DNA from: Chitinophaga lutea | GTDB lineage: Bacteria > Bacteroidota > Bacteroidia > Chitinophagales > Chitinophagaceae | Direction of reading: 5' to 3' | Length of the DNA stretch: 64,000 bases | NCBI RefSeq assembly: GCF_003813775.1 | Contig: NZ_RPDH01000001.1 | Span: 2,418,001-2,482,000 of the forward strand | Part shown: positions 1,278 to 21,684 of the stretch, in pieces | Layout of the letters: the number at the start of each line of letters is the position of its first letter | Position numbering within the stretch: the first letter of the stretch is position 1 | The notes under the pieces: model-generated | Databases searched by the model: none | The model's input: the letters and a program-made list of their open reading frames with translations, nothing else | What the model was told of the DNA's origin: nothing | Translations under genes and position numbers: made by a program

Positions 1278-2903
1278 TTATTTCACCTTCGTAAAACTGA
1301 CGTTCCGGGCGCGGGAAATGGAAATTTTGAAGCCGGAGATTTTATTCTGTTCGTTCCGCTCGAAATACAGCGGGCCGTACGGCGTTTCAAACCCGTCTTT
1401 ATACTGCGGGTTGAGCGTCAGTTTTGAGTTGGCTTTCTGCACCAGCCACACGGTGGTGCCTTCTGCCTCAATAGTTACCCGGGCATCGGCCTCCTCGGAA
1501 TAATATTCCCCGGTGTAACGGGCTGCGGCACCGTCGTTATTGATGTTTGCAAAGTCGACTGCCTTGTACTGGAGGGTATCTTTTTCGGGGGTGATTTCCG
1601 AAAAGCTGCCTTCAGCAAATTCGTACACGCCGCCGCGTTCGTTTTTAAAACGGTTTTTCCCGAGGGGGTACAGCGCCGTGTTGTTGCCGGCGTAAAGCTG
1701 CCCGTTTTTGATGGATAATTTCAGTCCCCGCCCGTCGCGTGAAAACTGGTACCAGCCGGTGTAATTCCGGAGGGTTTCTTCGGGCACGGCCAGTGGCGGA
1801 ACGGCCGTCTGCGGTTTTTTCGGTTTCGGCTCGGGGATAAAAATATTGCGGGCAAGGATAAACGGAACGGTTGAGTCCCGATCGAACGCCGAGGTATTGC
1901 TCAGAAAGGCGAAGGTGAGCCCCAGTTCGGGAAAATACTCGAGGTTGGCGCGGTAGCTGGCGGTAGCGCCGCTGTGCATGATCACTTCTTTTCCGTTGAG
2001 TTTGGTGACCACCAGGCCCGCGGCATAATTGTGCGGGTTGCCGTTGTTCAGCGGCCGGGTGGTAACCTGTTTCGGGAAAAGCGAAGGGTTGCCCAGTTTC
2101 CCGGTGGTATAAAACTGCGTCCACCGCAGCAGTTCTTCGGCCGTGGTAAGCAGCCCGCCATGGCCGTACACGCTTTCATTGGGCATGTCGTTCAGGTATT
2201 TGGGGCCGATGGTGGAATAGGCCATCGCCCTGCCCGGCACCATCAGCTTGTAGCTGGAGCGCCAGATGGATTGCTGCATGCCGGCGGGATCGAAAATGGC
2301 CGGCCGTGAAAAGTCTTTCATTTCTTTGCCGGACACGCGCTGCACGATGATGGTCATCAGGGTATAGCCGGTGTTGCTGTAAATGTATTCGGCGCCGGGC
2401 ACATTGTTCAGCGTTTTCTGCCTGCAGATGATAGCCAGGGCGTCGAGATTGTCGTACGCCTTGGTACCCCGCGGCCAGCCGGCGATGGCGGCAATGCTGC
2501 CCCAGTCTTTCAACCCGCTCGTATGCTGCATCAAATGGCGGATCGTAATGAGCGTACCGTAGTCCGGCAGCTCGGGAATATACTTGTGCACTTCGTCGTC
2601 GAGCGACAGTTTTCCTTCCTGCTCCAGCAGCAGGATGGCCGCGGCGGTGAATTGTTTGCTGACGGAGCCGGCTTCGATGAGCGAGGCGGTGCTCAGCTTC
2701 ACGTTATGTTCCAGGTCCGCCAACCCCCAGGCTTTTGAAAAGATCACCTGCCCGTTGCGGCTGATAGCCATCTGCGCCCCGGGCCCGTCGGGTTTATATC
2801 TGCTGAAAGCGGCTTCTATCCTGGCTACCGTATCCTGCCAGGTCTGCGCCTGCGCACTGGTATACAGGCAGGCGGAAAATAAAAGGAGCGATAATTTTTT
2901 CAT
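1278..2903 (-). CDS. Serine hydrolase of the beta-lactamase/class C family, exported
   Basis: A 541-residue protein with an N-terminal signal peptide (residues 1-20, ending SAQAQ), so probably periplasmic or outer-membrane facing. The catalytic domain shows the SxxK motif as SVSK (S80-K83), the tyrosine motif Y175-S-N177 and a late HSG motif, as in class C beta-lactamases, D-aminopeptidases and esterases. A C-terminal extension of about 150 beta-rich residues follows, as in many Bacteroidota members. The substrate cannot be told from sequence; a peptidase or esterase role is as likely as beta-lactam hydrolysis. The ATG at 2903 overlaps the stop of the upstream membrane-protein gene by 4 bp (ATGA), which suggests translational coupling. 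In-frame sequence continues upstream to 3068, but the signal peptide fixes the start at 2903. Confidence 0.85.
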   Translation of the reverse strand: MKKLSLLLFSACLYTSAQAQTWQDTVARIEAAFSRYKPDGPGAQMAISRNGQVIFSKAWGLADLEHNVKLSTASLIEAGSVSKQFTAAAILLLEQEGKLSLDDEVHKYIPELPDYGTLITIRHLMQHTSGLKDWGSIAAIAGWPRGTKAYDNLDALAIICRQKTLNNVPGAEYIYSNTGYTLMTIIVQRVSGKEMKDFSRPAIFDPAGMQQSIWRSSYKLMVPGRAMAYSTIGPKYLNDMPNESVYGHGGLLTTAEELLRWTQFYTTGKLGNPSLFPKQVTTRPLNNGNPHNYAAGLVVTKLNGKEVIMHSGATASYRANLEYFPELGLTFAFLSNTSAFDRDSTVPFILARNIFIPEPKPKKPQTAVPPLAVPEETLRNYTGWYQFSRDGRGLKLSIKNGQLYAGNNTALYPLGKNRFKNERGGVYEFAEGSFSEITPEKDTLQYKAVDFANINNDGAAARYTGEYYSEEADARVTIEAEGTTVWLVQKANSKLTLNPQYKDGFETPYGPLYFERNEQNKISGFKISISRARNVSFTKVK

Positions 2904-3568
2904 GATGGTACGGTTTTCAGGTGTTTGATGCTGCCTTCCACAATCATCCATTGCGCAACGCCGTATGTCAGCATGACTAAAATACTGCTTGCAGGGAAGG
3001 CGGTGTAAAATTTTTCTATGGCCAGTATGGAATCCGATATCACAAACAGGAGGGCGCCCGCTACGCACAGCAGGCCGGCTTTTCCGCTCCGCCAGCCGAA
3101 CGTGCGCAGGGCCGTCAGCAGCATCAGCGAAATAACCACCGTGTACACCATCACGGCCGGTTTCAGCTCACCGAGGTAAGGGGCCAGCAGACTCACTAAT
3201 CCTACGGCATATACGATCACGCCGGCTGCGGTGGCCGCTTCGCGCCAGCTCATCCGGGCCTTTGGCCGCACCTGCAGGAAAAAAATCATGTACAGGATGT
3301 GCGCCGTCAGGAAGCTGATCAGCCCCGCCACAAAATGTTGCGGGAACAGCAGCAGTACATCGCCGCCCCACGAAAAAATGATGGCGGCAAAAATGAAGTT
3401 CCTGGCACGAAGGTGTAAGTGAGCGGCATGTGCCCAGCAAAGGAAACCCAGCACGATCATGATCAATGGTTTGGTGGCGAAGCGGGCATGGGGAATGTCG
3501 AAGGCTATCACGCAAAGGTCTGCCAGCAGCACCAGGAAGTACAGTACTGCCCAGTTTTTCGGTTGCAT
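2900..3568 (-). CDS. YhhN/TMEM86-family integral membrane protein
   Basis: A 222-residue protein made almost entirely of hydrophobic segments (about seven to eight predicted membrane helices), with the SWGGDVLLLFP and FVISDSILAI motifs characteristic of the YhhN family. Animal TMEM86 relatives are lysoplasmalogenases; the bacterial substrate is usually unknown, so the enzymatic role here is inference. I chose the ATG at 3568. A TTG at 3592 in the same frame would add eight residues and cannot be excluded. It lies 36 bp downstream of the histidine kinase and overlaps the serine hydrolase start by 4 bp, so it probably belongs to the same transcript. Confidence 0.82.
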   Translation of the reverse strand: MQPKNWAVLYFLVLLADLCVIAFDIPHARFATKPLIMIVLGFLCWAHAAHLHLRARNFIFAAIIFSWGGDVLLLFPQHFVAGLISFLTAHILYMIFFLQVRPKARMSWREAATAAGVIVYAVGLVSLLAPYLGELKPAVMVYTVVISLMLLTALRTFGWRSGKAGLLCVAGALLFVISDSILAIEKFYTAFPASSILVMLTYGVAQWMIVEGSIKHLKTVPS

Positions 3569-3604
3569 AAGATCGCGGAATTGTAGCTGCAACTTAACTC
3601 CATT

Positions 3605-4939
3605 TTAATTAGTGAGCAATACGTAAAAAGTTGTACCCTTTTCCGGGGGACTGGCCACTTTCAGCTGGCCGCCGTGCATTTGTATGATTTGCTGGGAAAG
3701 GCTGAGCCCGATGCCGGAGCCTTTCTTTTTGGTGGTAAAGAAGGGGATGAAGATCCGTTCCTGGGCTTCCGGCTCGATGCCGGGCCCGTTGTCGGTCACC
3801 TCGATGATGATCTGCTGCGCGTTGCCCATGGAGCCTTTTACCTGTATGCGCGGTTTTTCCGTATGCTCCAGCGCGTCCATGGCGTTTTTTACGAGGTTGA
3901 TGAGCACCATCTGCAATTGCGTTTCATCTGCATGAATCTCAATGTTATCTGGCGACACGTGCGCCGTATAGGTAATGCCCGCTGCCCGGATATCGGACTG
4001 CAGCAGGTTGCTCACGGAGTTGATGAGTTGTTTGAGGTTGACGTTGGTGAACTGCGGTTTGGGCAGGGTGGTGTAATCGCGGTAGGCGTTCACGAAGTTC
4101 ATGATGCCCTTGCTGCGGCTTTCGATGGTTTCGAGGGCTTCCTTGAGGTCTTCCACCGCTTCCGTCTGTTCCGGGGTGGGCCCCATGTCGTGCTCCACGA
4201 TTTCGCGCATGGTGCCGATGAGGCTCACGATGGGGGTTACGGAGTTCATGATTTCGTGGCGCAGGATCTTGGTGAGGTTCTGCCAGGCCTCGAGCTCTTT
4301 CTGCTGCAGCTCCGCATGGATGTTCTGCAGGGAAATGAGCTTTACCAGCCGCCCCTGCAAGCGCACGGTGGTGGCCTGGATGGTGAGCTGCTGCCCGTTT
4401 TGCGTGGCGTACAGCGCTTTGCTGCCCGCCGGTAGCTGCAGCAGTGTTTCCGCCAGGTCAGGGTGGGGGTGTTTCAGTTCGTCGAGGTAACGGAGGCGGT
4501 AGATGCCCATCAGCCGGAAGGCGGCGGGGTTGATGAGCTCAATTTTGCCGTCCGAGTCGAAAGACAGTACGCCGATGCTGATATGCTGGATGATGGTATC
4601 GATGTATTTGAGATTGGCCTCCCTTTCCGCCCGCGTCTGGCGGAAGGCTTCAAGCACTTCGTTGAACTGGTGGTTCAGGGCACTGAAACTCTTGCCCAGC
4701 TTATTGTCTGCGCTGAAACGGATCGAAAAGTCCTCGTACCGGATAGCCTCCAGGAACAGGGTTAATTTGCGGTTCACCCGGTTGAGGTAATAATACAAAC
4801 CGAACACCTGCACGATGATAAACGGTACGATCAGCAGGATCACCAGCTGGTAGCCGTTCCACCACAGCCAGCAGCCGGCCATGATGGTGGCGATGAGCAC
4901 CACTATCCGCAATAAAATGTTAAGGCTGAATCGGTTCAT
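3605..4939 (-). CDS. NtrB-like membrane sensor histidine kinase
   Basis: A 444-residue kinase partner of the sigma-54 regulator encoded 44 bp upstream. Two membrane helices lie within residues 8-52 with almost no periplasmic loop. They are followed by a HAMP-like linker and a PAS-like domain (about 112-205), so the signal is probably sensed in the membrane or cytoplasm. The phosphoacceptor helix reads LRHEIMNS with H228. The ATPase domain has an N box (LINLVKNAMDAL), a G1 box (VTDNGPGI) and TTKKKGSGIGLSLS. The domain set and the pairing with a sigma-54 activator fit the NtrY/NtrB type. Its control of the divergent export locus is inferred from gene position. Confidence 0.92.
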   Translation of the reverse strand: MNRFSLNILLRIVVLIATIMAGCWLWWNGYQLVILLIVPFIIVQVFGLYYYLNRVNRKLTLFLEAIRYEDFSIRFSADNKLGKSFSALNHQFNEVLEAFRQTRAEREANLKYIDTIIQHISIGVLSFDSDGKIELINPAAFRLMGIYRLRYLDELKHPHPDLAETLLQLPAGSKALYATQNGQQLTIQATTVRLQGRLVKLISLQNIHAELQQKELEAWQNLTKILRHEIMNSVTPIVSLIGTMREIVEHDMGPTPEQTEAVEDLKEALETIESRSKGIMNFVNAYRDYTTLPKPQFTNVNLKQLINSVSNLLQSDIRAAGITYTAHVSPDNIEIHADETQLQMVLINLVKNAMDALEHTEKPRIQVKGSMGNAQQIIIEVTDNGPGIEPEAQERIFIPFFTTKKKGSGIGLSLSQQIIQMHGGQLKVASPPEKGTTFYVLLTN

Positions 4940-4983: not shown

Positions 4984-6330
4984 TCAGAGATTGTATTTTT
5001 CCATGCGGCGGTACAGCGCAGCCCGGCTCAGGCCCAGTTCCTTGGCGGCATCGGTGATGTTGCCGTTGCACTTTTTCAGGGCCTGCGAGATCATGTTCCG
5101 TTCCATATCTTCGAGGTTAAACCCGGTGTCGAACTGCTCGGCGGCAGCGTTCGTTTTCACGAATACGTCTTTCGGCATGAGGGTTTTGCCCTGGCAAAGA
5201 ATGACCGCTCGTTCGATGGCGTGCTGCAGCTCACGGATGTTGCCCGGCCAGTCGTATTTCTCGAGCTGGGCGATGAGCGTTTCGTGCAGGAAGGCCACGG
5301 GGCGGTTGTATTTTTTGCGGTACATGCCGAGGAAATATTCTGCCAGCGGCACGATATCTTCCACGCGGTTGCGCAGGGGCGGCAGCTGTATTTCGATGGT
5401 GTTGACGCGGTATAAAAGGTCCTGGCGGAACAGGTGCTGGGCCGCCATTTGCTGGATGTTGCGGTTGGTGGCGCAGATGAGTCGCACATCCACGGCGGCG
5501 GCTTTGTTGGAGCCCACACGCGTCACCGAACGGTTCTGCAGCACGGTGAGGAGTTTGGCCTGGAAGGGAATGGAAATATTGCCGATCTCGTCCAGGAAAA
5601 TGCTGCCGCCGTTAGCCTCTTCAAACCGCCCGCTGCGATCGTCGCGGGCATCGGTAAACGCGCCTTTCACATGGCCGAACAGCTCGCTTTCAAACAGTGA
5701 TTCGCTGAGGGCGCCAAGGTCTACGCTCACGAAAGGTTTTTCTTTCCGCTGGCTGAGGGTGTGAATGTGCCGCGCCAGCAGGTCTTTGCCCGTACCGTTT
5801 TCGCCGAGGATGAGGATGTTGGCGTCGGTACCCGCTACGCGGGATACGGTTTCCATTACTTCCTGCATGGCGGGACTGTCGCCGATCAGTACATTATCGG
5901 TATGAAGGGTGGCGCCGCCTGCCTTTTTCTCCTGTTTGGCCTGGTGGGTCAGCACCGCCGTTTGCATGGTAGCCAGCAGTTTATCGTTTTCCCAGGGTTT
6001 CAGCACAAAATCCACTGCGCCTGCTTTGATGGCGCGAACGGCCATTTCCACGTCGCCGTAGGCGGTAAACAGCACCACGGTGGCTTTGGGATTGATGTCC
6101 AGAATACGGTCCAGCCATTCAAATCCTTCTTTGCCGCTGCTGAGGTCGCGGGTGAAATTCATGTCGAGCAGAATCACATCGTACTCGAAATTGCTTACCA
6201 GGTAGGGGATCTTCTGCGGGTTCTTTTCGAAGTCCACCTGGGCGAAATGCCTTTTTAACAACAGGCGTGCTGCTCTTAATACATCCACATCATCATCAAC
6301 GATCAGGATTTTTCCTTGCTGTGTACTCAT
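4984..6330 (-). CDS. Sigma-54-dependent response regulator, NtrC type
   Basis: A 448-residue activator with three domains. The receiver has acidic residues D12-D14, phosphoacceptor D56 and K111. The AAA+ domain has Walker A GENGTGKD (176-183) and Walker B SIFLDEIG (243-250). A Fis-type helix-turn-helix ends the protein (NITDAAKELGLSRAALYRRM). The sigma-54 contact loop reads GAFTDA (223-228) rather than the textbook GAFTGA. It is the first gene of a minus-strand unit with the kinase and is divergent from the export genes. Three inverted repeats and a -24/-12-like promoter lie in the shared 311-bp region, so its likely target is the export operon, and perhaps its own gene. Confidence 0.94.
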   Translation of the reverse strand: MSTQQGKILIVDDDVDVLRAARLLLKRHFAQVDFEKNPQKIPYLVSNFEYDVILLDMNFTRDLSSGKEGFEWLDRILDINPKATVVLFTAYGDVEMAVRAIKAGAVDFVLKPWENDKLLATMQTAVLTHQAKQEKKAGGATLHTDNVLIGDSPAMQEVMETVSRVAGTDANILILGENGTGKDLLARHIHTLSQRKEKPFVSVDLGALSESLFESELFGHVKGAFTDARDDRSGRFEEANGGSIFLDEIGNISIPFQAKLLTVLQNRSVTRVGSNKAAAVDVRLICATNRNIQQMAAQHLFRQDLLYRVNTIEIQLPPLRNRVEDIVPLAEYFLGMYRKKYNRPVAFLHETLIAQLEKYDWPGNIRELQHAIERAVILCQGKTLMPKDVFVKTNAAAEQFDTGFNLEDMERNMISQALKKCNGNITDAAKELGLSRAALYRRMEKYNL

Positions 6331-6500
6331 CGGTATTTTGTTTCCTTGGTTAGCAAATACTGCAAATCATATTCCGTTCCGGCGGGTTATGCCGGAAAGC
6401 CGGGGTGGTTGAACGGCCCAAAACGGCCCCGGAAGCAATATTAAACAAAGATTTTTTTGATTCGGGGGTTATTTTGAGGCGGGGCGGGAGGGCTGTTTTG

Positions 6501-6569
6501 TGTCCGGAAACGGACACCGCCTGTCCGCTTTGGAACAGGCCGCCCATTGGGCGTTTCCGCCAAATGGGC
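6501..6569. promoter_or_regulatory. Three abutting inverted repeats, candidate enhancer for the NtrC-type regulator
   Basis: Site 1 (6501-6516) is a perfect palindrome, TGTCCG-GAAA-CGGACA. Site 2 (6519-6540) is GCCTGTCC-N6-GAACAGGC, 8-bp arms with one mismatch. Site 3 (6542-6569) has 12-bp arms with one mismatch around TTTC (GCCCATTGGGCG / CGCCAAATGGGC). Centres are at 6508.5, 6529.5 and 6555.5, that is 21 and 26 bp apart. They lie about 70-120 bp upstream of the predicted transcription start, the usual range for sigma-54 enhancer sites. Binding by the divergent regulator is inference. Confidence 0.7.
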
Positions 6570-6601
6570 CATGGTGCGTAATCTGGCTCTTTGGCATGGC
6601 T

Positions 6602-6616
6602 TGGCACATGGATTGG
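6602..6616 (+). promoter_or_regulatory. Candidate sigma-54 (-24/-12) promoter of the export operon
   Basis: TGGCAC-N5-TTGG matches the sigma-54 consensus TGGCAC-N5-TTGC except for the last base of the -12 element. Transcription would start near 6628, leaving a leader of about 14 nt before the ATG at 6642. An overlapping alternative just upstream (TGGCAT with a GC one base too close) fits less well. The GC to GG change at -12 is a real weakness of the call. Confidence 0.55.
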
Positions 6617-6641
6617 GTATTTGTCCGCAGCAATTACAATC

Positions 6642-7889
6642 ATGGATAGACAACTCAAAAAGAAATACTGGAACAAACAACGCATTTTTCTCGTTGGCGG
6701 AGGTGGCGTGCTGGTACTGCTCGTTTTATGGAGCTTCATTTTTGCCGACAAAAGAAGCAAGCTGAATGTTGAAAAAGACAAGATCACGATCTCTACCGTA
6801 ACGCAGGGGTCGTTCGACGAATATATCGTGGTGACGGCAGTGGTGCATCCGCTCAAAACCATCCGCCTCGACGCCATCGAGGGCGGGTATGTGGCCCGCA
6901 AGTTCCTCGAAGGGGGCAGCATGGTAAAACAGGGCGATTCCATCCTCCGCCTCGAAAACCAGCGGCTGATGATGGAGTTTGTAAACAGGGAAACGGAAAT
7001 GTACCGCCTGCTGAACGAATTGCAGAACACCCGCCTGCGTTTGCGCCAGGACCGTTTTGCCCTCGAAAAGACGCTCAGCGACCTCGATTACCAGGTAGAC
7101 CAGGCCAAAGACCTGTTCGACCGGAACCACAAACTGTTCAAAGACAAGGTGATCGCCGAGCAGGAGTATCTGAGATCCAAGCGTGATTATGAAAAACTGA
7201 CGCGCCAGCGAGAAATCGAAGTGAAATCGCAGGCTTACCAGATCGACAACTCTCAAACGCAGATCTCCCAGCTGGAAGGGACCATTGCCAGAACGCAGCG
7301 GAACCTGTCGCTGATGAAGGAGAACCTCAATAACCTGGTGGTGCGTGCCCCGGTAGACGGCCAGCTGTCGTCTATCAACGTGGAAGTGGGCACCAGCATT
7401 TCCGCCGGCCAGAACATCGGCCAGATCGACGATCTCAACGGTTTCAAGATGCGCGCGGAAGTGGACGAACATTACATTTCACGTGTATTTGCCGGCCTGA
7501 AGGCCAATTTCGAGTTCAACGGCAAAAACAACGACATGGTGATATCCAAAGTATATCCCGAAGTGAAAAACGGGCGGTTTGAAGTAGATATGAATTTTTC
7601 TTCCGGAGCACCTGAAGGGATCCGTCGCGGCCAATCCTCTCCTATCCGCCTCGAATTAGGGAAGTCGTCTTCAGCTCTCTTACTGCCGGTGGGCGGGTTC
7701 TTTTCAGATACCGGGGGAAACTGGGTGTACGTAGTGGAAAAAGGCGGAAAGCGTGCGGTGAAGCGCAACATTTCGCTGGGCCGCAAAAACCCGGTATATT
7801 TCGAAGTGCTCGAAGGGCTGAACCCCGGCGAGCAGGTGATCACATCGCCCTATGAGAATTTCGGCAACAAGGAAGTGCTGGAGTTTTAA
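6642..7889 (+). CDS. HlyD/MacA-type periplasmic adaptor of an ABC exporter
   Basis: A 415-residue membrane-fusion protein: short cytoplasmic tail, one membrane anchor (about 15-35), a lipoyl/barrel-sandwich half (GGYVARKFLEGGSMVKQGD), a long alpha-helical hairpin (about 115-225, Q- and R-rich coiled coil), the second lipoyl half (VVRAPVDGQLSS) and a beta-barrel/membrane-proximal region. It should bridge an inner-membrane transporter and an outer-membrane TolC-type channel. The ATG at 6642 is preferred over upstream in-frame starts because it gives a normal MDRQLKKK tail before the anchor. It is the first gene after the candidate sigma-54 promoter and 34 bp before the ATPase gene. Confidence 0.9.
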   Translation: MDRQLKKKYWNKQRIFLVGGGGVLVLLVLWSFIFADKRSKLNVEKDKITISTVTQGSFDEYIVVTAVVHPLKTIRLDAIEGGYVARKFLEGGSMVKQGDSILRLENQRLMMEFVNRETEMYRLLNELQNTRLRLRQDRFALEKTLSDLDYQVDQAKDLFDRNHKLFKDKVIAEQEYLRSKRDYEKLTRQREIEVKSQAYQIDNSQTQISQLEGTIARTQRNLSLMKENLNNLVVRAPVDGQLSSINVEVGTSISAGQNIGQIDDLNGFKMRAEVDEHYISRVFAGLKANFEFNGKNNDMVISKVYPEVKNGRFEVDMNFSSGAPEGIRRGQSSPIRLELGKSSSALLLPVGGFFSDTGGNWVYVVEKGGKRAVKRNISLGRKNPVYFEVLEGLNPGEQVITSPYENFGNKEVLEF

Positions 7890-7923: not shown

Positions 7924-8613
7924 ATGATCAGAACAGTCAATTTACAGAAGCTCTTTACGACCGAAGAAGTGGAAACTACGGCGCTGAACGGTATTTATAT
8001 GGAAGTGCAGGACGGCGAGTTTGTAGCCATCATGGGTCCCTCCGGTTGCGGTAAATCCACCCTGCTTAATATCCTGGGGTTGCTCGACAACCCGTCAGAC
8101 GGCGAATATCATTTCTGGGGCCAGGAAGTGGCGCGCATGAGCGAACGTCAGCGTGCCCAGCTGCGGAAAGGCGCCATCGGGTTCGTGTTCCAGAGCTTTA
8201 ACCTCATCGACGAGCTGACTGTTTTTGAAAATGTGGAGCTGCCGCTGCTGTACCTGAAAGTACCTGCCAGCGAAAGGAAAAAAAGGGTGGAGGAAGTGCT
8301 CGAAAGAATGAACATCATGCACCGCCGCAATCACTTCCCCCAGCAACTGTCTGGCGGCCAGCAGCAGCGTGTGGCCATCGCCCGCGCCGTAGTGGCCAAA
8401 CCGAAACTGATCCTCGCGGACGAACCGACGGGTAACCTCGACTCCACTAACGGGGAAGAAGTGATGAAACTGCTGCAGGAGCTCAACGATGCCGGTACCA
8501 CCCTGATCATGGTAACCCACTCCCCCTACGACGCCGGTTTCGCCCACCGCATCGTCAACCTCTTCGACGGTAAAGTCGTTACGGAAAACATCAAAGAACA
8601 ATTTCACGTATAA
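7924..8613 (+). CDS. ABC transporter ATPase, MacB/LolD type
   Basis: A 229-residue stand-alone nucleotide-binding subunit. Walker A is GPSGCGKST (38-46), the Q loop FQSF, the signature [14 protein letters not shown] (from 142), Walker B LILADE (162-167), the D-loop region GNLDS and the switch histidine is in VTHS. All catalytic motifs are intact. It should power the FtsX-type permeases encoded immediately downstream, which lack ATPase domains of their own. The first permease gene begins 11 bp after its stop. Confidence 0.94.
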
Positions 8614-8624
8614 CCCGCTGCCCT

Positions 8625-10988
8625 ATGTTTCATAACGTCAAAATTGCCTGGAGAACGCTCAGTAAACAAAAGTTGTATGCCGCCATCAACATCGGCGGCC
8701 TGGCTATTGGCCTAGCGGTGACCACCCTGCTGCTGATGTGGCGGCAGGATGAGTTGAGTTATGATGCATTTCATCCGGGGAAGGAAAATATATACGAAGT
8801 ACACAGCACTTTCGAGTCAGGAGGCTCGATGGTGCACTGGATAAATACACAGGCAGCCGTGGCCGCCCATTCGCTGCGGTCTGTGCCGGGCGTGAAAGAA
8901 GCCGTGCGCGTGTCGTACAACCAGGACATGAGCCGGTTCCAGTACCGCGACCGGGTCTTTTTTGAAAAACAGACAGGGTATGTGGACGAGCGCTTTTTCT
9001 CCCTGTTCAACTTTCCGTTGCTGAAAGGAGATCGTAACAAACCCTTCAGGGACAATAACTCCGTAGTGGTATCTTCATCCATTGCAAAAAAATATTTCGA
9101 AGACGAGGAGCCGATCGGGAAAGTGATCACCATCGACGGCAAACACCAGTTTACCGTAACGGGGGTAATGGAAGACATGCCGTTAAACTCCAGCATCCGG
9201 TACGATATGCTGTTCCCCTTCGACCGCGTTGTCAAATCATATGCTCCCAATGGTTACTGGAAAACAGCGGACGAAGACTGGGGCAATTTCTATGTACGTA
9301 CTTATCTGCAGCTGCAGCCGGAGACTAACCTGGACACGACAGCTGCGCGGCTGGGCAGGTTGTGGGTGACGCAAAGCCCCAACGAGGGTATCGAAAGACG
9401 GGGTTACCTGCTGCAGTCCCTGACCGACGTTCATTTTTACGAAGTGAACGGTAAAGAAGGGCTGATCAGGGTTATCCGCGTCTTTTTCCTGATAGCGATC
9501 GTTATCCTGCTTATTGCCTGCATCAATTACATTAACCTGTCCACCGCCAGGGCCAGCCAACGCGCGGTAGAGGTGGGCGTGCGCAAGGCCATCGGCGCCA
9601 ACCGCGTGCAGCTCTTCCGGCAGTTCATCAGCGAATCGGTGCTGGTGTTTGGTATTGCCGTGGTGTTGGCAGTGGCGCTCCTGTATTTCCTGCTGCCGTT
9701 CTGCAACGACCTCACGGGTAAAAATATGACGTTGAGCCTGCTCGACGGCCGGATTCTCGGCATTCTGGGCTTCGGCATTTTATTCATGCTGCTGCTGGCC
9801 GGCGTATATCCGGCGCTGCTGCTGACTTCTTTCGATCCATTGAACGCACTGAAAGGAAAAATCACCGCTGCCGGCCGGTCAGGTTTCTTCCGCAAAGGAC
9901 TGGTGGTGACGCAGTTTGTTATTTCCGTGGTATTGATCGGCAGCACACTGGTGATCGGTTTGCAGCTGCGCTATATTCACAATAAGCCGCTCGGGTTCGA
10001 CAAAGAGAATGTATTTATCTTCCCCGTACGGAACATGCAGGAACATGCCGCCGCCGTTAAACAGCAGCTGGCAGCCATTCCCGGAGTAACTGCGGTAACC
10101 TACGGGCATACCAATATCATGAATGTGGGCAGCTCCACGAGCGATACGGATTGGGAGGGCAAGGCACCCGGCCAGAGCCTCAATGTGACCGTGATCGGGG
10201 CGGATGCCGACTTCGTTCCCTCCATGAAATTAACGATCAAAGAGGGCCGTGCTTTCCGGCCGGGCCCCGCGGATTCCGCGTCATACGTCCTCAACGAAGA
10301 AACAGTGAGGCTGACCGGCCTCAAAGATCCTGTCGGCAAGCGGTTCAGGCTGTATGATACCGAGGGTACCGTGATCGGTGTAGTGAAAGATTTTCACAGC
10401 GGCGATATGCATTATAAAATCAGGCCGCTGGTGATGTTTTACAAGCCGGAAGGATGGCAGCTCTATGTAAAAACGGATGGCCAGCGCACGGCCGCCGTGG
10501 TGGATTCCATCGGGAAGATCTGGAGCCGCTATAACCCGGATTATCCGTTTGAGCCGTCGTTCCTGGATATGAGCTATTCCGCCATGTACGCCGGCGAGGC
10601 CCGTACCGGTAAACTGTTCCTGACATTCGCCGGTGTGGCCGTGTTCCTGTCGTGCCTCGGGCTTTTCGGCCTGGCCACCTTCTCCATATCGCAGCGCACC
10701 AAAGAAATCGGCATCCGCAAGGTGCTGGGTGCTTCGGTGCCGAATATCATACAATTGATCTCGAAAGATTTTCTAAAGCTGGTGCTGATTGCCATCGTGA
10801 TCGCTACGCCGATTGCCTGGTACGCCATGCAGCAGTGGTTGAGCAGTTTCGCTTACAGTATACCGGTGCCCGTGTGGGCCTTTGCCGCGGCAGGTGTAGT
10901 AGCGGTGCTGATAGCGCTGTTCACCGTCAGCTTCCAGTCTATAAAAGCCGCACTGGTGAACCCGGTGCACTCCTTAAAATCAGAGTAA
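8625..10988 (+). CDS. FtsX/MacB-type ABC permease 1 of 5
   Basis: A 787-residue permease with duplicated topology. It has one N-terminal helix (about 20-40), a periplasmic MacB-type domain, three helices in the middle with the motif RAVEVGVRKAIGA, a fifth helix preceded by FFRKGLVVTQF, a second periplasmic domain, and three C-terminal helices with QRTKEIGIRKVLGAS. This eight-helix form, without a fused ATPase, is common in Bacteroidota antimicrobial-peptide and lipoprotein-type exporters. The substrate is unknown. It ends 1 bp before the start of the 67-residue membrane protein gene. Confidence 0.9.
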   Translation: MFHNVKIAWRTLSKQKLYAAINIGGLAIGLAVTTLLLMWRQDELSYDAFHPGKENIYEVHSTFESGGSMVHWINTQAAVAAHSLRSVPGVKEAVRVSYNQDMSRFQYRDRVFFEKQTGYVDERFFSLFNFPLLKGDRNKPFRDNNSVVVSSSIAKKYFEDEEPIGKVITIDGKHQFTVTGVMEDMPLNSSIRYDMLFPFDRVVKSYAPNGYWKTADEDWGNFYVRTYLQLQPETNLDTTAARLGRLWVTQSPNEGIERRGYLLQSLTDVHFYEVNGKEGLIRVIRVFFLIAIVILLIACINYINLSTARASQRAVEVGVRKAIGANRVQLFRQFISESVLVFGIAVVLAVALLYFLLPFCNDLTGKNMTLSLLDGRILGILGFGILFMLLLAGVYPALLLTSFDPLNALKGKITAAGRSGFFRKGLVVTQFVISVVLIGSTLVIGLQLRYIHNKPLGFDKENVFIFPVRNMQEHAAAVKQQLAAIPGVTAVTYGHTNIMNVGSSTSDTDWEGKAPGQSLNVTVIGADADFVPSMKLTIKEGRAFRPGPADSASYVLNEETVRLTGLKDPVGKRFRLYDTEGTVIGVVKDFHSGDMHYKIRPLVMFYKPEGWQLYVKTDGQRTAAVVDSIGKIWSRYNPDYPFEPSFLDMSYSAMYAGEARTGKLFLTFAGVAVFLSCLGLFGLATFSISQRTKEIGIRKVLGASVPNIIQLISKDFLKLVLIAIVIATPIAWYAMQQWLSSFAYSIPVPVWAFAAAGVVAVLIALFTVSFQSIKAALVNPVHSLKSE

Positions 10989-11253: not shown

Positions 11254-13662
11254 ATGCTCAGAAATTACTTCAAAGTGGCCCTGCGCCATTTACTGCGCAA
11301 TAAAGGCATCACCTTTATCAATGTGGCGGGGCTGGCCATCGGGATGGCCTGTTGTATTCTGATTGTGCTGTTCATCCGGCACGAGCTGGGCTACAATAAT
11401 TTTCATGCCAGAGGAAAGGAGATTTACCGCCTCGTATATGACATGAAACACTCGGATGGGCTGGTGGAGTACGGCACCAGTACCCAGTTCGCCGCGGCAC
11501 CGGCGCTGAAGCGCGAGCTGGCGGGCATCAAAGAAAGCGTGCGGGTGTTCAACGCGCGGGAAGTGGTGATTGCGGCGGCGGGAGAAGCGTACCGCCAACA
11601 GAATGTACTGTTCGTGGATCAGGACTTTTTCAACGTCTTCAGCTTTCCGCTGACAGCAGGCAATCCGGCCACTGCGCTCAAAGATCCCTACTCCGTGGTG
11701 CTCACGGAATCGACCGCTAAAAAATATTTCGGTACCGTCAACCCCGTAGGCAAAGCGTTGCGGGTACAGGATGACTATGATTGCATCGTGACCGGCGTCG
11801 TAAAAGATGTGCCTTCCAACTCCGACATTGATTTCGATATTTTATTTTCTTTCAAAACCATTTTGCAGAATGCCGCCAAAACAGGCAGCAATCCAGAAAG
11901 CAGCTGGTATGCTTTTTCCAACAACCAGACTTTCGTGACGCTGACACCCGGCACAACGCCCAATTCAATCCGCGGCGAACTGAACGGCCTGGTGGAACGG
12001 TATATAACCCCCATCGCCAAAACGTTGGGCGAGCAATTCAGCTATCAATTGCAGCCGCTGGCCAACATGCATCTCAAACCCGAGGGCGATCTCGCGCCGG
12101 ATGAGGCCAGCACCAAATTATATCTCTACGGTGTGATCGGGCTGTTCATCATCCTCATCGGGTGCATCAACTTCATGAACCTCGTAACGGCCAGGGGCCA
12201 TGAACGGGCGATGGAAGTGGGCCTGCGGAAGGTGATGGGTGCTGAGAGAAAGGCGCTCATTGTACAGTTTCTGGTGGAATCCGTGGTGATCTGCATCCTG
12301 GCTTTTATGCTGGCCGTATTGCTCGCGCAATTGCTGTTGCCGGGCTTTAACTACGTAACGGACAAAACGCTGACGATTTTTGAGCCGGGCAACGTACCGC
12401 TGCTGTCGTTATTGCTGCTGCTGGCCGTGGTGGTGGGCTTGATGGCAGGTAGTTATCCTGCGCTGTATCTTTCCGGTTTCATACCCGTGCGTATCCTGAA
12501 GGGAGGCGCCAAAAGCGCCGGAGGCAGGTCGCTGTTCCGGAAAGTGCTGGTGGTGTCGCAGTTCAGTATTGCTATTGCATTGATCATCGCCACGGTGGTG
12601 ATTTATTCCCAATTGCGTTACATGCAACGGAAAGACCTCGGCTTCAACAAAGCCGGGCTGGTGAACTTCAACCTGAACAATCCCAAACAGGCCGGTCTGC
12701 GCCCCGCATTCAAAGCAGAACTGGAACGGCTTCCGTTCGTGCAAAGCGCCGCCTATACCAGCATGCCGCCCGGCGTTGGTTTTACCAGCGTGAACCCGGT
12801 AGGGCTGGAGGGATCCAAAAGTGAAGACAGCAAACTCTCCGTAATCGTGAACGCCGATTTCTCGTACTTCACCAATATGGGCGTAAAAATAGCCGCCGGC
12901 CGCGATTTCGACGCCCGCTTTCCCACGGACTCCATCGACGCTTTTGTGATCAACAAAAAGGCCGCTGCCATCCTGGGGCTTAAAAATCCCGTGGGCAGCC
13001 GCATCGAATGGCGTGGAGGCCCCGTACCCCGCAAGGGCACGGTGATAGGCGTGGTGGAAGATTTTAACATGCAAAGCCTCCGGTTACCGATAGAGCCCAT
13101 GGTGGCCATGATACGGCCCGCGCAGGCCCGCATGCTGATGGTGCGCCTGGCGCCTGGTGATAAGCAGCAGCAGGTGGCCCGCATCGGGGAGATCTGGCAG
13201 CGGATGATGCCGGCATTTCCTTTCAACTACCGTTTCGTGGAATCTGAAATAGGCAATGAATATGAGCAGGAAAAACGGACGGGCAGCCTCTTCGGCGCCT
13301 ACGCCTGCCTGGCGGTCTTTATCGCCAGCATGGGGTTGTTCGGCCTGGCCATGCTTGTAGCACGCCAGCGCACCAAAGAAATCGGCATCCGCAAGGTGCT
13401 GGGCGCCTCAGTGAGCAGTATCATGACCTTGCTGTCGAAAGACTTCCTGCAGCTTGTGTTTATCGCTATTTTTATTGCGGCCCCCATTGCCTGGTATGCT
13501 GCCAGCAGGTGGCTCGAGAATTTTGCCTTTCCGATCAGCATGCCCTGGTGGGCCTTTATTGCAGCGGGCGGCGGGGCTCTGCTCATCGCCTTCGTTACCA
13601 TCAGTTTCCAGGCCATCAAGGCCGCTTTATTGAATCCCGTGCGCTCACTGCGTTCGGAATAA
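11254..13662 (+). CDS. FtsX/MacB-type ABC permease 2 of 5
   Basis: An 802-residue permease with the same eight-helix, two-periplasmic-domain plan as its neighbours. It has an N-terminal helix (GITFINVAGLAIGMACCILI), a middle motif RAMEVGLRKVMGA, a fifth helix after LFRKVLVVSQF and a C-terminal motif QRTKEIGIRKVLGAS. It ends with the family's NPVRSLRSE-type tail. It clearly arose by tandem duplication with the flanking permeases but has diverged in the periplasmic domains, which suggests different partners or substrates (inference). The next permease starts 19 bp downstream. Confidence 0.9.
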   Translation: MLRNYFKVALRHLLRNKGITFINVAGLAIGMACCILIVLFIRHELGYNNFHARGKEIYRLVYDMKHSDGLVEYGTSTQFAAAPALKRELAGIKESVRVFNAREVVIAAAGEAYRQQNVLFVDQDFFNVFSFPLTAGNPATALKDPYSVVLTESTAKKYFGTVNPVGKALRVQDDYDCIVTGVVKDVPSNSDIDFDILFSFKTILQNAAKTGSNPESSWYAFSNNQTFVTLTPGTTPNSIRGELNGLVERYITPIAKTLGEQFSYQLQPLANMHLKPEGDLAPDEASTKLYLYGVIGLFIILIGCINFMNLVTARGHERAMEVGLRKVMGAERKALIVQFLVESVVICILAFMLAVLLAQLLLPGFNYVTDKTLTIFEPGNVPLLSLLLLLAVVVGLMAGSYPALYLSGFIPVRILKGGAKSAGGRSLFRKVLVVSQFSIAIALIIATVVIYSQLRYMQRKDLGFNKAGLVNFNLNNPKQAGLRPAFKAELERLPFVQSAAYTSMPPGVGFTSVNPVGLEGSKSEDSKLSVIVNADFSYFTNMGVKIAAGRDFDARFPTDSIDAFVINKKAAAILGLKNPVGSRIEWRGGPVPRKGTVIGVVEDFNMQSLRLPIEPMVAMIRPAQARMLMVRLAPGDKQQQVARIGEIWQRMMPAFPFNYRFVESEIGNEYEQEKRTGSLFGAYACLAVFIASMGLFGLAMLVARQRTKEIGIRKVLGASVSSIMTLLSKDFLQLVFIAIFIAAPIAWYAASRWLENFAFPISMPWWAFIAAGGGALLIAFVTISFQAIKAALLNPVRSLRSE

Positions 13663-13681: not shown

Positions 13682-16042
13682 ATGTGGAGAAACTATATTA
13701 AAATAGCATGGAGGAACCTCTGGAACAATAAAATGTTCGGGGTGATCAACATTGCGGGGCTCACGATGGGCCTCACCTGTTGTATGTTCATCCTGCTGTG
13801 GGTGGCCAACGAATGGAACTACAACCGCAACCACCAGCAACTGCCCAACATCTACCAGGTATATGAGCATCAGTACTACGCCAACCGCGATGTATTTACG
13901 GTGACAGCTACGCCGGGCCCGCTGGCCGACCAGCTGAAAGCCGAAACGCCGGGTATCCTGAAAGCGGGCGTGTTATCGTGGATCTCTGACAAGCTGTTGA
14001 ATGTACGGGAGAAAAACGTGAAAATGGCCGGGCAATATGCGAACAACGACCTGCTGCATGTATTTTCTTTTCCCTTCCTGGAAGGTGACCCCGCCAAAGC
14101 ACTGAAAAGCCCGAACGAAATCGTGATCACCGAAAAACTGGCGCACAGCCTTTTTGGTGAAGCCCGCGCAGTGGGGCAGATCGTGCGGCTCGACAATAAA
14201 ATGGATTACGAAGTCAGCGGCGTGATCAAAGACCATCCCCTGAACTCGATGTTCAAATTCGAATGGCTGCTGCCCATGGAGCGGCTGGTGGACGAAAATG
14301 AATGGCTGAAACAGTGGGACGCGAATGCGCCGCGCACCTATGTGCTGGCCGACCCGAAAGCCGACATCGACAAACTGAATGCGAAAGTAAAAGGCATCAT
14401 ACAACGCAACCTCAAAGATTCCAAAACAGAAGTGTTTCTCTACCCCTTCCAGGACACTTACCTGAAAGGACGTTTTGAAGACGGGCACGAAACCGGCGGC
14501 CGCGTCGAATATGTTCGCCTCTTCATTGTGGTGGCCATTTTTGTGTTGCTCATCGCCTGCATCAACTTTATGAACCTCTCTACCGCCCGCGCCATCCAGC
14601 GTAGTAAGGAAGTGGGGGTGCGCAAAAGCATCGGTGCAGACAAAAGCTCGCTGATCGGGCAGTTCATGGGTGAGTCTTTTGCGCTGGTGTTTGCCGCCAC
14701 CGCCCTCGCATTGCTGCTGGTATGGGTGCTCACGCCCGCGTTCGAGCGCATGGTGAATGTCAAATTATCGGTGGAACTGTTCACCTGGTACAATATGGCC
14801 GGCTTGTTCTTCCTCGGCTTGTTTACCGGCTTTGTGGCCGGCAGCTACCCCGCTTTTTATCTTTCTTCGCTCGACCCAGTGGCCACCCTCAAGGGCGGCA
14901 TGCTTCGCCTGCGCACCAGCGCCATCTGGCTGCGGAAGAGCCTCGTGATATTCCAGTTCGTGGTGTCCACCACGCTGATCGTAGGCGCGTTCCTGGTGTA
15001 CCTGCAGATCAGTTTCATCAAAAACAGGAACCTGGGCCTGAATAAAGACCAGGTGGTGTATTTCCGGAACGAGGGCAGCATCGCCAATAACAACGCTGCT
15101 TTCAAAAGCGCGCTGTTGGGGATGCCCGGCATCGTGGCGGCTACGGAGTCAGACCAGTTGCCCATCCGTGTGGGCAACAACGGTCAGGGCGTGTCGTGGC
15201 CGGGTAAAGCGGAGAACGAAGAAGTGCTGATCGATTTTCTCTGGGTGGGTAACGATTTCGACAAAACCATGCAGCTGGAAATGATTGAAGGCAGGACGTT
15301 CTCGGCAGCATTTCCTAACGATGGAAAAGGTGTGGTGATCAACGAAACGGCCGCCAAACTGATGAAGCTGCAAAAGCCTTATGTGGGGCGCATCATCACA
15401 GTGGCTGGTGAGCAACGCCCCATCCTTGGCGTAACGGAAGATTTCAGCAGCAACCATGCCCAGATCAAAACAGGGCCCCTGCTTATCCGTTACCAGCCTT
15501 CGGGCAACTGGTACGTGCTGGTGCGCATACAGCCGGGCCAGATGGAGAAAGCAGTGGCCAGCATCGAAAAAGCATATAAACAATTTAATCCTGAATACCC
15601 TTTCACACTGGAGTATATGGACGAAACCTTCGCCCAGATGTATACCAGCGAACAGGTGATCGGCAGGCTGGCGGCCGCTTTTACGGCTCTCGCCATTTTT
15701 ATCGCCTGCCTCGGTTTGTTCGGGCTTGCCACCTTTACGGCACAGCAGCGTACCAAGGAAATCGGCATCCGCAAAGTGCTGGGCGCCACGGTGCTCCAGA
15801 TACTGGCCCTGCTCAGCAAAGAATTCCTGCGGCTGGTGCTCATCGCCGTTGCCATTGCCATGCCACTGGCGGCTTACCTGATGAACGACTGGCTGAACAA
15901 ATTCGCCTATCATATCGAAGTGAGCTGGTGGGTGTTTGTGGTTACCGGCATATTGGCCCTGGTGCTGGCTTTGCTGACAGTTAGCTACCAGTCTGTGAAA
16001 ACCGCGAGAATGAATCCCATTAAATCTTTAAGATCTGAATAA
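13682..16042 (+). CDS. FtsX/MacB-type ABC permease 3 of 5
   Basis: A 786-residue permease. N-terminal WRNYIKIAWRNLWNNK leads into the first helix. The middle motif is RSKEVGVRKSIGA, the fifth helix follows LRKSLVIFQF, and the C-terminal cluster begins after QRTKEIGIRKVLGAT. The stop TAA overlaps the ATG of permease 4 by one base (TAATG), so translation of the two is probably coupled and they may be needed in equal amounts. No fused ATPase domain is present. Confidence 0.9.
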   Translation: MWRNYIKIAWRNLWNNKMFGVINIAGLTMGLTCCMFILLWVANEWNYNRNHQQLPNIYQVYEHQYYANRDVFTVTATPGPLADQLKAETPGILKAGVLSWISDKLLNVREKNVKMAGQYANNDLLHVFSFPFLEGDPAKALKSPNEIVITEKLAHSLFGEARAVGQIVRLDNKMDYEVSGVIKDHPLNSMFKFEWLLPMERLVDENEWLKQWDANAPRTYVLADPKADIDKLNAKVKGIIQRNLKDSKTEVFLYPFQDTYLKGRFEDGHETGGRVEYVRLFIVVAIFVLLIACINFMNLSTARAIQRSKEVGVRKSIGADKSSLIGQFMGESFALVFAATALALLLVWVLTPAFERMVNVKLSVELFTWYNMAGLFFLGLFTGFVAGSYPAFYLSSLDPVATLKGGMLRLRTSAIWLRKSLVIFQFVVSTTLIVGAFLVYLQISFIKNRNLGLNKDQVVYFRNEGSIANNNAAFKSALLGMPGIVAATESDQLPIRVGNNGQGVSWPGKAENEEVLIDFLWVGNDFDKTMQLEMIEGRTFSAAFPNDGKGVVINETAAKLMKLQKPYVGRIITVAGEQRPILGVTEDFSSNHAQIKTGPLLIRYQPSGNWYVLVRIQPGQMEKAVASIEKAYKQFNPEYPFTLEYMDETFAQMYTSEQVIGRLAAAFTALAIFIACLGLFGLATFTAQQRTKEIGIRKVLGATVLQILALLSKEFLRLVLIAVAIAMPLAAYLMNDWLNKFAYHIEVSWWVFVVTGILALVLALLTVSYQSVKTARMNPIKSLRSE

Positions 16043-18429: not shown

Positions 18430-18431
18430 CC

Positions 18432-20872: not shown

Positions 20873-21535
20873 ATGATTCAATTACGCAACATCACGAAGC
20901 ATTACCCGGTAGGGTTTGGGAAACAGGAAATTCTGAAAGACGTGAACCTGCACATCCATGAAGGGGAGTTTGTGTCTATCATGGGCCCGTCCGGCTCGGG
21001 GAAGTCTACCTTGTTGCATATACTCGGTTTGCTGGAAGAGCCTTCCGAAGGCGACTATTATTTCCAGGGAGAACTGGTGCAGAAGATGAACGATAAAAAA
21101 CGCACCCAGCTGCACCGGGGCGCCATCGGCTTCGTGTTCCAGGCTTACCACCTGATCGACGAGCTGACGGTGTATGAAAACATCGAAACGCCCCTGTTGT
21201 ATAAAAACATGCCCGGTTCCGAACGGAAAAGCCGGGTGGCCGATATACTCGACAGGTTTAACATCGTTGCCAAAAAAGACCTGTTCCCCAACCAGTTGTC
21301 CGGCGGCCAGCAGCAGCTGGTGGGCATTGCGCGGGCCATCGTGGCCGAGCCGGCCGTCATTTTCGCCGATGAGCCGACCGGGAACCTGCATTCCGACCAG
21401 GCCAAATCCATTATGGAGCTGTTCGCCGAACTGAACAGGAACGAACGCATTACCATTGTACAGGTAACCCACTCGGACGTCAATGCCGCATACGGGAACC
21501 GGATCATCCAGATAAAAGACGGGAAAGTGCAGTAA
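20873..21535 (+). CDS. Second ABC ATPase of the export locus, with substituted motif positions
   Basis: A 220-residue ATPase that aligns without gaps to the one at 7.9 kb over the motifs. Walker A is GPSGSGKST (38-46), the Q loop FQAY, Walker B VIFADE and the switch VTHS. It differs where the first copy is canonical: the signature continues LSGGQQQLVGIARA (R149 to L, A151 to G) and the D-loop region reads GNLHS (D173 to H). Both sites touch the partner subunit in an ABC dimer, so it may have altered activity or act as one half of a heterodimer; this is inference. The ATG at 20873 is set by homology with the first copy. Confidence 0.92.
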   Translation: MIQLRNITKHYPVGFGKQEILKDVNLHIHEGEFVSIMGPSGSGKSTLLHILGLLEEPSEGDYYFQGELVQKMNDKKRTQLHRGAIGFVFQAYHLIDELTVYENIETPLLYKNMPGSERKSRVADILDRFNIVAKKDLFPNQLSGGQQQLVGIARAIVAEPAVIFADEPTGNLHSDQAKSIMELFAELNRNERITIVQVTHSDVNAAYGNRIIQIKDGKVQ

Positions 21536-21594
21536 ACACTTTTTGTAAAATCCGTAAGTTAAAAACTCATCATATGATGTTTTGCCTTAAATTC

Positions 21595-21613
21595 GTGTGG
21601 CCCCGCGCCACAC
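21595..21613. promoter_or_regulatory. Hairpin between the second ATPase and tolC-like genes
   Basis: Perfect 7-bp arms GTGTGGC / GCCACAC around CCCGC, 60 bp after the ATPase stop. No T-run follows, so it is a poor intrinsic terminator. It may reduce read-through or be an operator. A separate perfect 12-bp palindrome, CATCATATGATG, lies at 21568-21579. The following A+T-rich stretch contains TATTTTTG (21670-21677), which fits the Bacteroidota -7 box TAnnTTTG, but no clear -33 element was found. Confidence 0.4.
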
Positions 21614-21684
21614 CTAATAACAATTTGCCATTTATCAAGAAAGCGCGAAAGGTGTTATTTCAATTAATATATTTTTGTCAGGAT

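Follow-up and report, generated by a model that had tools for sequence, protein, structure and literature searches.

The promoters controlled by NtrC, ZraR and AtoC combine a receiver-AAA+-HTH activator, a divergently encoded target, a -24/-12 element of the sigma-54 type and paired dyads located approximately 100-120 bp before the expected start. Phosphorylated dimers of NtrC-type activators, when bound to adjacent sites, assemble into an AAA+ ring, which acts through a DNA loop to remodel the sigma-54 polymerase, and binding sites some 80-100 bp before the promoter box are usual for this class, such a distance being far for repression. The known targets of these systems are nitrogen or metal genes. 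Among exporters, MacAB uses TolC, and both MacAB-TolC and the darobactin exporter DarBCD include an adaptor, an ATPase and a permease of the MacB fold; the proteins of the ADOP family (TIGR03434), which we take to stand for 'acidobacterial duplicated orphan permease', are about 800 amino acids long and occur in many copies without an adjoining ATPase gene. In Vibrio, 61 LuxO-driven qrr enhancers have been annotated with a tandem of activator sites, and their loops, some 80 to 120 bp long, fall into length clusters about 11 bp apart, according to the passages of the paper used here (PMC4740811). In Bacteroidia, sigma-54 promoters have been computed at FtsX-like permeases (COG0577), the permease family that is also the subject of the present analysis, and have been called the first evidence of this kind (PMC12316311, in the passages used here), that is, a sigma-54 link at such permeases is already in print as a prediction. 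Those passages of PMC12316311 name neither an activator nor an activator site for the COG0577 permeases, and words beginning with chitinophag, macb or hlyd are absent from its main text. In the literature that we searched, which mostly excludes subscription journals, we found no paper on the regulator, the site pair, the regulon of scattered permeases or the clustered spacing described below.

When examining the window, that is, the whole 64-kb stretch of Chitinophaga lutea DNA analysed here, we observed a locus in which sequence comparison supports a promoter with paired candidate sites between a divergent NtrC-family regulator, hereinafter R, and an export operon. The histidine kinase gene and the gene for R are on the minus strand, and the exporter genes are on the plus strand from position 6642, with the following features:

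3605 to 4939, minus strand: histidine kinase (Pfam HATPase_c; phosphoacceptor motif HEIMN; two closely spaced N-terminal hydrophobic segments)
4984 to 6330, minus strand: regulator R of the NtrC family, receiver, sigma-54 AAA+ (GAFTDA) and HTH_8 (Pfam)
6436 to 6454, minus strand: AT-rich conserved element CAATATTAAACAAAGATTT (CAATAWWA in 36 of 38 loci), which may belong to the promoter of R
6501 to 6516, no strand: candidate activator site 1, TGTCCGGAAACGGACA (38 of 38 loci; 39 of 39 with L073)
6522 to 6537, no strand: candidate activator site 2, TGTCCGCTTTGGAACA, 21 bp from site 1
6542 to 6569, no strand: third inverted repeat, only in this window among the loci compared
6591 to 6600, plus strand: extra upstream -24-like copy, TTGGCATGGC (11 of 38 loci)
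6601 to 6616, plus strand: -24/-12-type element TTGGCACATGGATTGG (TTGGCA-N6-TTG in 38 of 38 loci)
6642 to 7889, plus strand: HlyD/MacA-type adaptor 1 (Pfam HlyD_3, HlyD_D23)
7924 to 8613, plus strand: ABC ATPase 1 (Pfam ABC_tran)
8625 to 10988, plus strand: ADOP-like MacB/FtsX permease P1 (Pfam; TIGR03434 319.8 bits, cut-off 622.3)
11254 to 13662, plus strand: ADOP-like permease P2 (TIGR03434 323.2 bits)
13682 to 16042, plus strand: ADOP-like permease P3 (TIGR03434 298.8 bits)
16042 to 18429, plus strand: ADOP-like permease P4 (TIGR03434 306.9 bits)
18426 to 20846, plus strand: ADOP-like permease P5, with a mechanically assigned TTG start (TIGR03434 296.5 bits)
20888 to 21535, plus strand: ABC ATPase 2, 53% identical to ATPase 1
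21574 to 23133, plus strand: outer membrane efflux protein of the TolC type (Pfam OEP)
23165 to 24550, plus strand: HlyD-type adaptor 2 (Pfam HlyD_D23, HlyD_3)

The closest named loci are those of C. alhagiae, C. barathri and others, with 90-96% identity of the regulator. The first-pass annotation had placed the repeats next to a divergent NtrC-type regulator, and R indeed has the domain composition of that type, namely, a receiver, a Sigma54_activat AAA+ domain and an HTH_8/Fis domain, with PDB relatives that bear the names NtrC family and ZraR. The likeness to the NtrC, ZraR and AtoC systems extends to the divergent target, the paired dyads and, in outline, the element of the -24/-12 type; the targets here are export permeases instead of nitrogen or metal genes. 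The operon shares with MacAB-TolC and DarBCD the adaptor, the ATPase and the MacB-fold permease. Unlike in those systems, the ATPase and the permease, which in MacB are fused, are separate genes, with five tandem permeases here and more elsewhere; the locus also falls below the NCBIfam cut-offs for MacB and MacA and for DarB, DarC and DarD. The permeases P1-P5, each of about 800 amino acids, match TIGR03434 over nearly its full length, at 296.5-323.2 bits compared with the curated cut-off of 622.3, so they are denoted "ADOP-like" only; in neither of the genome sets used below (147 from the family and 148 from the phylum) did any genome yield a TIGR03434 match over the cut-off. Beyond the kinase gene, positions 1278-3592 of the window (minus strand) encode a beta-lactamase family protein (PF00144) and a YhhN-family protein.

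From the sites, their spacing, the promoter element, the genes that carry them and their co-occurrence, as they emerge from sequence comparison, we infer that R is the binder, that it activates rather than represses and that the intervening DNA loops. Under this main reading, to which we assign a probability of about 0.82, the paired sites are the upstream activating sites of R, and R together with sigma-54 drives the operon and most of the ADOP-like permeases outside it; these control sites, which adjoin a sensor-regulator pair, would most likely switch on a tripartite export pump. Specifically, the adjacent kinase (3605-4939) would be the partner of R (4984-6330), two R dimers would occupy 6501-6537 two helical turns apart, and the phosphorylated dimers would assemble an AAA+ ring that contacts the sigma-54 polymerase at 6601-6616 via a short DNA loop, with a length held near whole turns of DNA. 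The MacAB-TolC-like exporter operon (adaptor-ATPase-permease-TolC) would thereby be switched on, presumably as one transcript that would start near 6628, and the same sites elsewhere would switch on most of the ADOP-like permease genes outside the operon. Relative to the expected start, the sites are centred near -119 and -98.

Both sites have the form TGTCC-N6-GGACA, with 0 to 3 mismatches per site across loci; TGTCCGGAAACGGACA (6501-6516) has perfect 6-bp arms, and TGTCCGCTTTGGAACA (6522-6537) sits within the repeat delimited at 6519-6540 in the first-pass annotation. The comparison covered 38 loci, namely, the window, two genomes of the same genus and 35 named contigs, all labelled Chitinophaga except for one labelled [Flexibacter]; the other Chitinophaga matches were L072, which comes without upstream DNA, and the fragment L073, which was added later and brings the number of loci to 39. 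Both sites and one TTGGCA-N6-TTG element are present in each of the 38 loci, or in 39 of 39 when L073 is included. The 21-bp distance between the centres of the first two palindromes, which had been pointed out at the outset and is present as written, was imposed in the first comparison of 38 loci; in the repeat, which covered 39, the spacing was left free (16 to 40 bp), and 21 bp was the single best in every locus. The paired upstream dyads of an NtrC-type activator were found in all loci under either procedure. In both sites, G and T at positions 2-3 and A and C at positions 14-15 are invariant whereas the centre is free, and the distance from the start of R to site 1 ranges from 73 to 245 nt across the loci.

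Individually, such palindromes are unremarkable: the 64-kb window contains 24 with 6-bp arms and a 4-nt loop, and exact TGTCC-N6-GGACA occurs in 5 places in the genome versus 9 in the reversed control, that is, without enrichment by count. The signal resides in the pairs and in where the pairs fall. On a flexible site score that, like the box score, was set by hand after the sites had been inspected, the pair reaches 32.2; elsewhere in the window, one place exceeds 24 (24.2), and in the reversed window, none does. A stricter matrix, applied to 200,147 bases of DNA from the same genome, a sample itself picked around export and regulator genes, yielded 9 pairs, of which 8 are at export genes and one is at C2:959732, compared with 2 pairs in the reversed control.

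Downstream of the repeats, the element of the -24/-12 type that had been predicted there is found as TTGGCACATGGATTGG. A canonical sigma-54 element has GG at -24 and GC at -12, with ten bases from one to the other. The GG at -24 and the TTG at -12 are invariant in 38 of 38 loci, and within the genus ten bases separate the -24 GG from the -12 G. In seven family loci (L004, L005, L007, L010, L015, L022 and L026), nine bases instead of ten lie between GG and GC/GT, which is unusual for sigma-54. The -12 element had been described as imperfect, and the canonical C is indeed absent; this is a feature of the lineage rather than of this locus, given that the C after TTG is missing in all 38 loci, with TTGA in 21, TTGG in 14, TTGT in 3 and TTGC in none. 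In this respect, the TTG[AGT] element differs from its counterparts in the NtrC, ZraR and AtoC systems. One gene for RpoN was found in the genome, and its product carries the RpoN-box sequence.

In the window, the -24 element is doubled at a distance of ten bases, with TTGGCATGGC followed by TTGGCAC at 6591-6610 (clade form, TTGGCAYGGC TTGGCAC); the extra copy is present in 11 of the 38 loci, which make up the window's clade, and gives two overlapping promoter candidates. Measured to the first T of TTGGCA, site 1 is 89 bases from the promoter in 18 loci, 90 in 9, 99 in one and 100 in 10, and the 11 loci with the long distances (99 and 100) are exactly those with the additional TTGGCA about ten bases upstream. 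The extra copy stands at the distance from site 1 that is used by the remaining loci, and either of the two copies could be the working -24 element.

Related species have a common ancestry, so the counts given above are not independent, and the conserved sites and spacing might merely reflect genome kinship and have no function. We find this hardly credible: across the 38 loci, the linker between site 2 and the promoter has diverged in sequence (median identity 54%, minimum 26%, in 234 pairs of the same length) and yet is nearly fixed in length. Moreover, unlinked paralogous promoters in one genome have the same arrangement, and on two Zixibacteriota contigs (L065 and L066), inspection by eye showed pairs spaced 21 bp apart together with a GG-N10-GC element.

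Three inverted repeats had been proposed in the first-pass annotation. The first two recur beside orthologous regulators in 39 of 39 loci; the third was seen in none of the other loci compared. In the window, this third repeat is a strong one, with 12-nt arms that are 92% complementary (6542-6553/6558-6569), and has CGGAAACG/CGTTTCCG in common with site 1, which could speak for three functional sites sharing a GAAA core. When the interval from site 2 to the box was searched with loops of 3-8 and no more than one mismatch, no counterpart emerged in the other 37 loci: the longest arm was 12 in the window and at most 10 elsewhere, and 29 of the 38 loci had no arm of 8 or more. In addition, 26 bp separate the centre of the third repeat from the centre of site 2, a distance that is out of phase. 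The third repeat was thus rejected as a functional site for want of a counterpart, and probably is not part of the predicted switch; the proposed CG-GAAA-CG core was given up as well because the site centres vary among loci. Altogether, an arrangement of three sites with a GAAA core appears very improbable.

A conserved module of two putative activator sites recurs before permease genes across the Chitinophaga genome. Twelve further permease genes of this kind are not part of the operon, and most of them have site pairs together with a TGGYA box in their upstream DNA. With the hand-set score, which admits 17-mers as well, pairs above 24 were detected at 10 of the 12 non-operon permeases here, 10 of 12 in G106 and 12 of 17 in G006 (both Chitinophaga genomes), compared with 0 of 37 control permeases (control maximum, 20.3). 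The controls comprised a subset of 4 among the shorter permeases encoded in this genome, 3 shorter ones of G106 and 30 of the 31 MacB-domain matches in seven genomes that lack R, in which all the matching frames are 406-474 amino acids long. Scores above 24 were also found for 12 of 20 promoters from five other genera, which were taken from the listed best matches of five genomes and so are not a random sample. A matrix derived exclusively from the R loci of other species gave values above 6.6 (the control maximum, n = 37) upstream of 26 of 35 non-operon permeases, with the best pair within 280 nt: 10 of the 12 scored here, 8 of the 11 scored in G106 and 8 of the 12 scored in G006, out of totals of 12, 12 and 17 such genes, respectively. 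The last G106 gene (L244) scored 28.6 later and is outside the 47 distances analysed below; the remaining five G006 genes were scored later with the hand-set score, using estimated starts and 390-nt stretches.

Several observations go against the main reading. No pair was found at one non-operon permease here (L125) and one in G106 (L171), the score is below 20.3 at three of the 17 in G006 and at 8 of the 20 promoters from other genera, and a strong pair with a spacing of 20 lies between convergent frames at C2:959732 (L118, approximately 5733-5768), without an adjoining permease. The presence of like pairs before scattered genes for pump channels suggests that one signal may switch on the whole set together. 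If the main reading holds, a large group of permeases, most of which have no ATPase gene alongside, gains a predicted activator together with a binding site and a regulon. In this genome, none of the 12 non-operon permeases has a match to the operon ATPase closer than about 30 kb; ATPases were counted only at E <= 1e-30, so a distant ATPase could be nearer. Conceivably, one regulon joins a single exporter core (adaptors, ATPases and TolC) with a dozen or more orphan permeases, which would be exchangeable modules powered in trans by the ATPase of the core, a tentative proposal to which we give somewhat less than even odds. If it is correct, the common sites tell which ATPase the orphan permeases use, and the question of what powers these permeases becomes addressable by deletion.

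The distance between the sites and the box was analysed for 47 promoters with a pair above 20.3, 35 of the genus and 12 of other genera, with the box picked by its own score no more than 100 nt from the start codon, blind to the site distance; promoters of related genomes and paralogues, including orthologues in three genomes, are not independent. Twelve of the distances are 79-82 and 31 are 88-93, with single cases at 70, 106, 112 and 162 and none at 71-78 or 83-87; for L138, the automatically chosen box at 106 was kept in the counts, a more canonical one being at 91. In 100,000 swaps of boxes among promoters, the largest 10.5-bp periodicity was 0.52 compared with 0.77 observed, and the fit is about as good for any period from 10 to 12. 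The existence of two distance clusters about ten bases, or about one DNA turn, apart is robust. Under the tentative proposal made above for the orphan permeases, the distance between sites and promoter would evolve only by whole turns of DNA. The clusters would amount to a set of naturally occurring enhancer-loop variants, in a phylum for which the literature searched says little about sigma-54 activators. The distances of the LuxO-driven qrr enhancers cluster in the same manner; those enhancers serve small-RNA genes in Vibrio, whereas the genes here are protein-coding export genes of Bacteroidota, many of them unlinked within a genome (PMC4740811, in the passages used here).

The clusters also bear on the direction of control. 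Palindromes alone do not show activation, and the lack of the canonical C of the -12 element in 38 of 38 loci would be compatible with TTGGCA not being used by sigma-54 and with the sites being repressor operators, either for a negatively acting R or for another binder. We consider this improbable given the clustering of the distances by about one helical turn, the invariant GG at -24, the sigma-54 AAA+ domain in R and the location of the sites about 80-100 bp upstream of the box, where activators usually bind and which is far for repression.

The same genome encodes a second export system (L119; G000 C3:850000-868000) with its own regulator, denoted R2, an ATPase and MacB-domain permeases (frames of 416 and 581 amino acids). 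R2 (C3:854701-856050) is 44% identical to R, the recognition helices of R2 and R are near-identical (LGLTRSALYRRLEKYN versus LGLSRAALYRRMEKYN), and both have GAFTDA at the loop that in NtrC-type activators contacts sigma-54 as GAFTGA; two other activators encoded in this genome have GAFTGA. TGTCCGGAACCGGACA and TTGGCACCCCGATTG precede the export system of R2, its operon having a TGTCCGGAACCGGACA site and a TTGGCA-N6-TTG box upstream. Given this paralogue, its near-identical helix and the similar site ahead of its exporter, either regulator, or the two of them, could be the binder. R2 might even be the main binder of the regulon, or the sites might be common to the two regulators, with R by itself controlling little apart from its operon. 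We deem this unlikely because G006, which has R, has no R2-grade match among the 11 candidates scored per genome and still has pairs above 20.3 at 14 of its 17 non-operon permeases; furthermore, it is the orthologues of R, commoner than R2-grade matches among the candidates scored, that track the permeases.

This tracking was apparent in 147 genomes of the family, in which R orthologues (E <= 1e-117) and strong ADOP-like permeases (E <= 1e-80) occurred together in 71, R alone in one (a genome that is 83% complete), the permeases alone in none and neither in 75, with five weak ADOP matches (1e-42 to 1e-48) scored as absent. All 7 family genera that hold both kinds of genome are concordant. The co-occurrence is partly trivial because the permeases adjoin R in many genomes. 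Among 148 genomes of the phylum, 33 had both, 8 had R only, one had the permease only and 106 had neither, with matches between 1e-70 and 1e-80 scored as absent; the absence of strong ADOP-like permeases from 8 of the 41 R-bearing genomes goes against the main reading. At the laxer threshold of 1e-70, the respective numbers are 36, 5, 8 and 99.

As for the signal, the hydropathy peaks of the kinase start around residues 1-12 and 19-35, and Pfam detects no sensor domain on the outside; a PAS_8 match of 21.7 bits, just below the cut-off of 21.8, lies after the hydrophobic part. Intramembrane-sensing (Bce/Lia-like) kinases have two transmembrane helices with a very short external loop, lack an outer sensor domain and work with FtsX-type permeases. 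Judging by hydropathy and Pfam, a likeness of the present kinase to these proteins is a lead to follow, and because the kinase has little outside the membrane, envelope or peptide stress is suggested as the signal.

Similar arrangements are found in more distant relatives. The 30 R loci of the family include three of the genus, and in the other 27, where the R relatives are 50-54% identical, pairs scoring above 24 were detected in 23, usually as 17-mers of the form TGTATC-N5-CGRACA located 22 bp apart, and in 19 the best box and site 1 are 90-92 bp apart. When these 27 loci were scanned with a strict 16-mer, no pair at 20-22 bp came up because the family sites are mostly 17-mers. No convincing pair was seen at L006, L012, L023 and L025, of which L012 has little upstream DNA. 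The phylum search provided a further 27 R loci: pairs above 24 were found in 24 and the best box was at 88-92 in 19, the eight others being L270, L275, L278, L279, L282, L285, L286 and L290. Among the loci that agree, several are closely related to one another. The same order of kinase, regulator, adaptor and ATPase genes is present in L064, L065 and L066 (Melioribacteraceae, Zixibacteriota), the regulators of which are 53-58% identical, which makes them as close as regulators from other genera in the family of the window.
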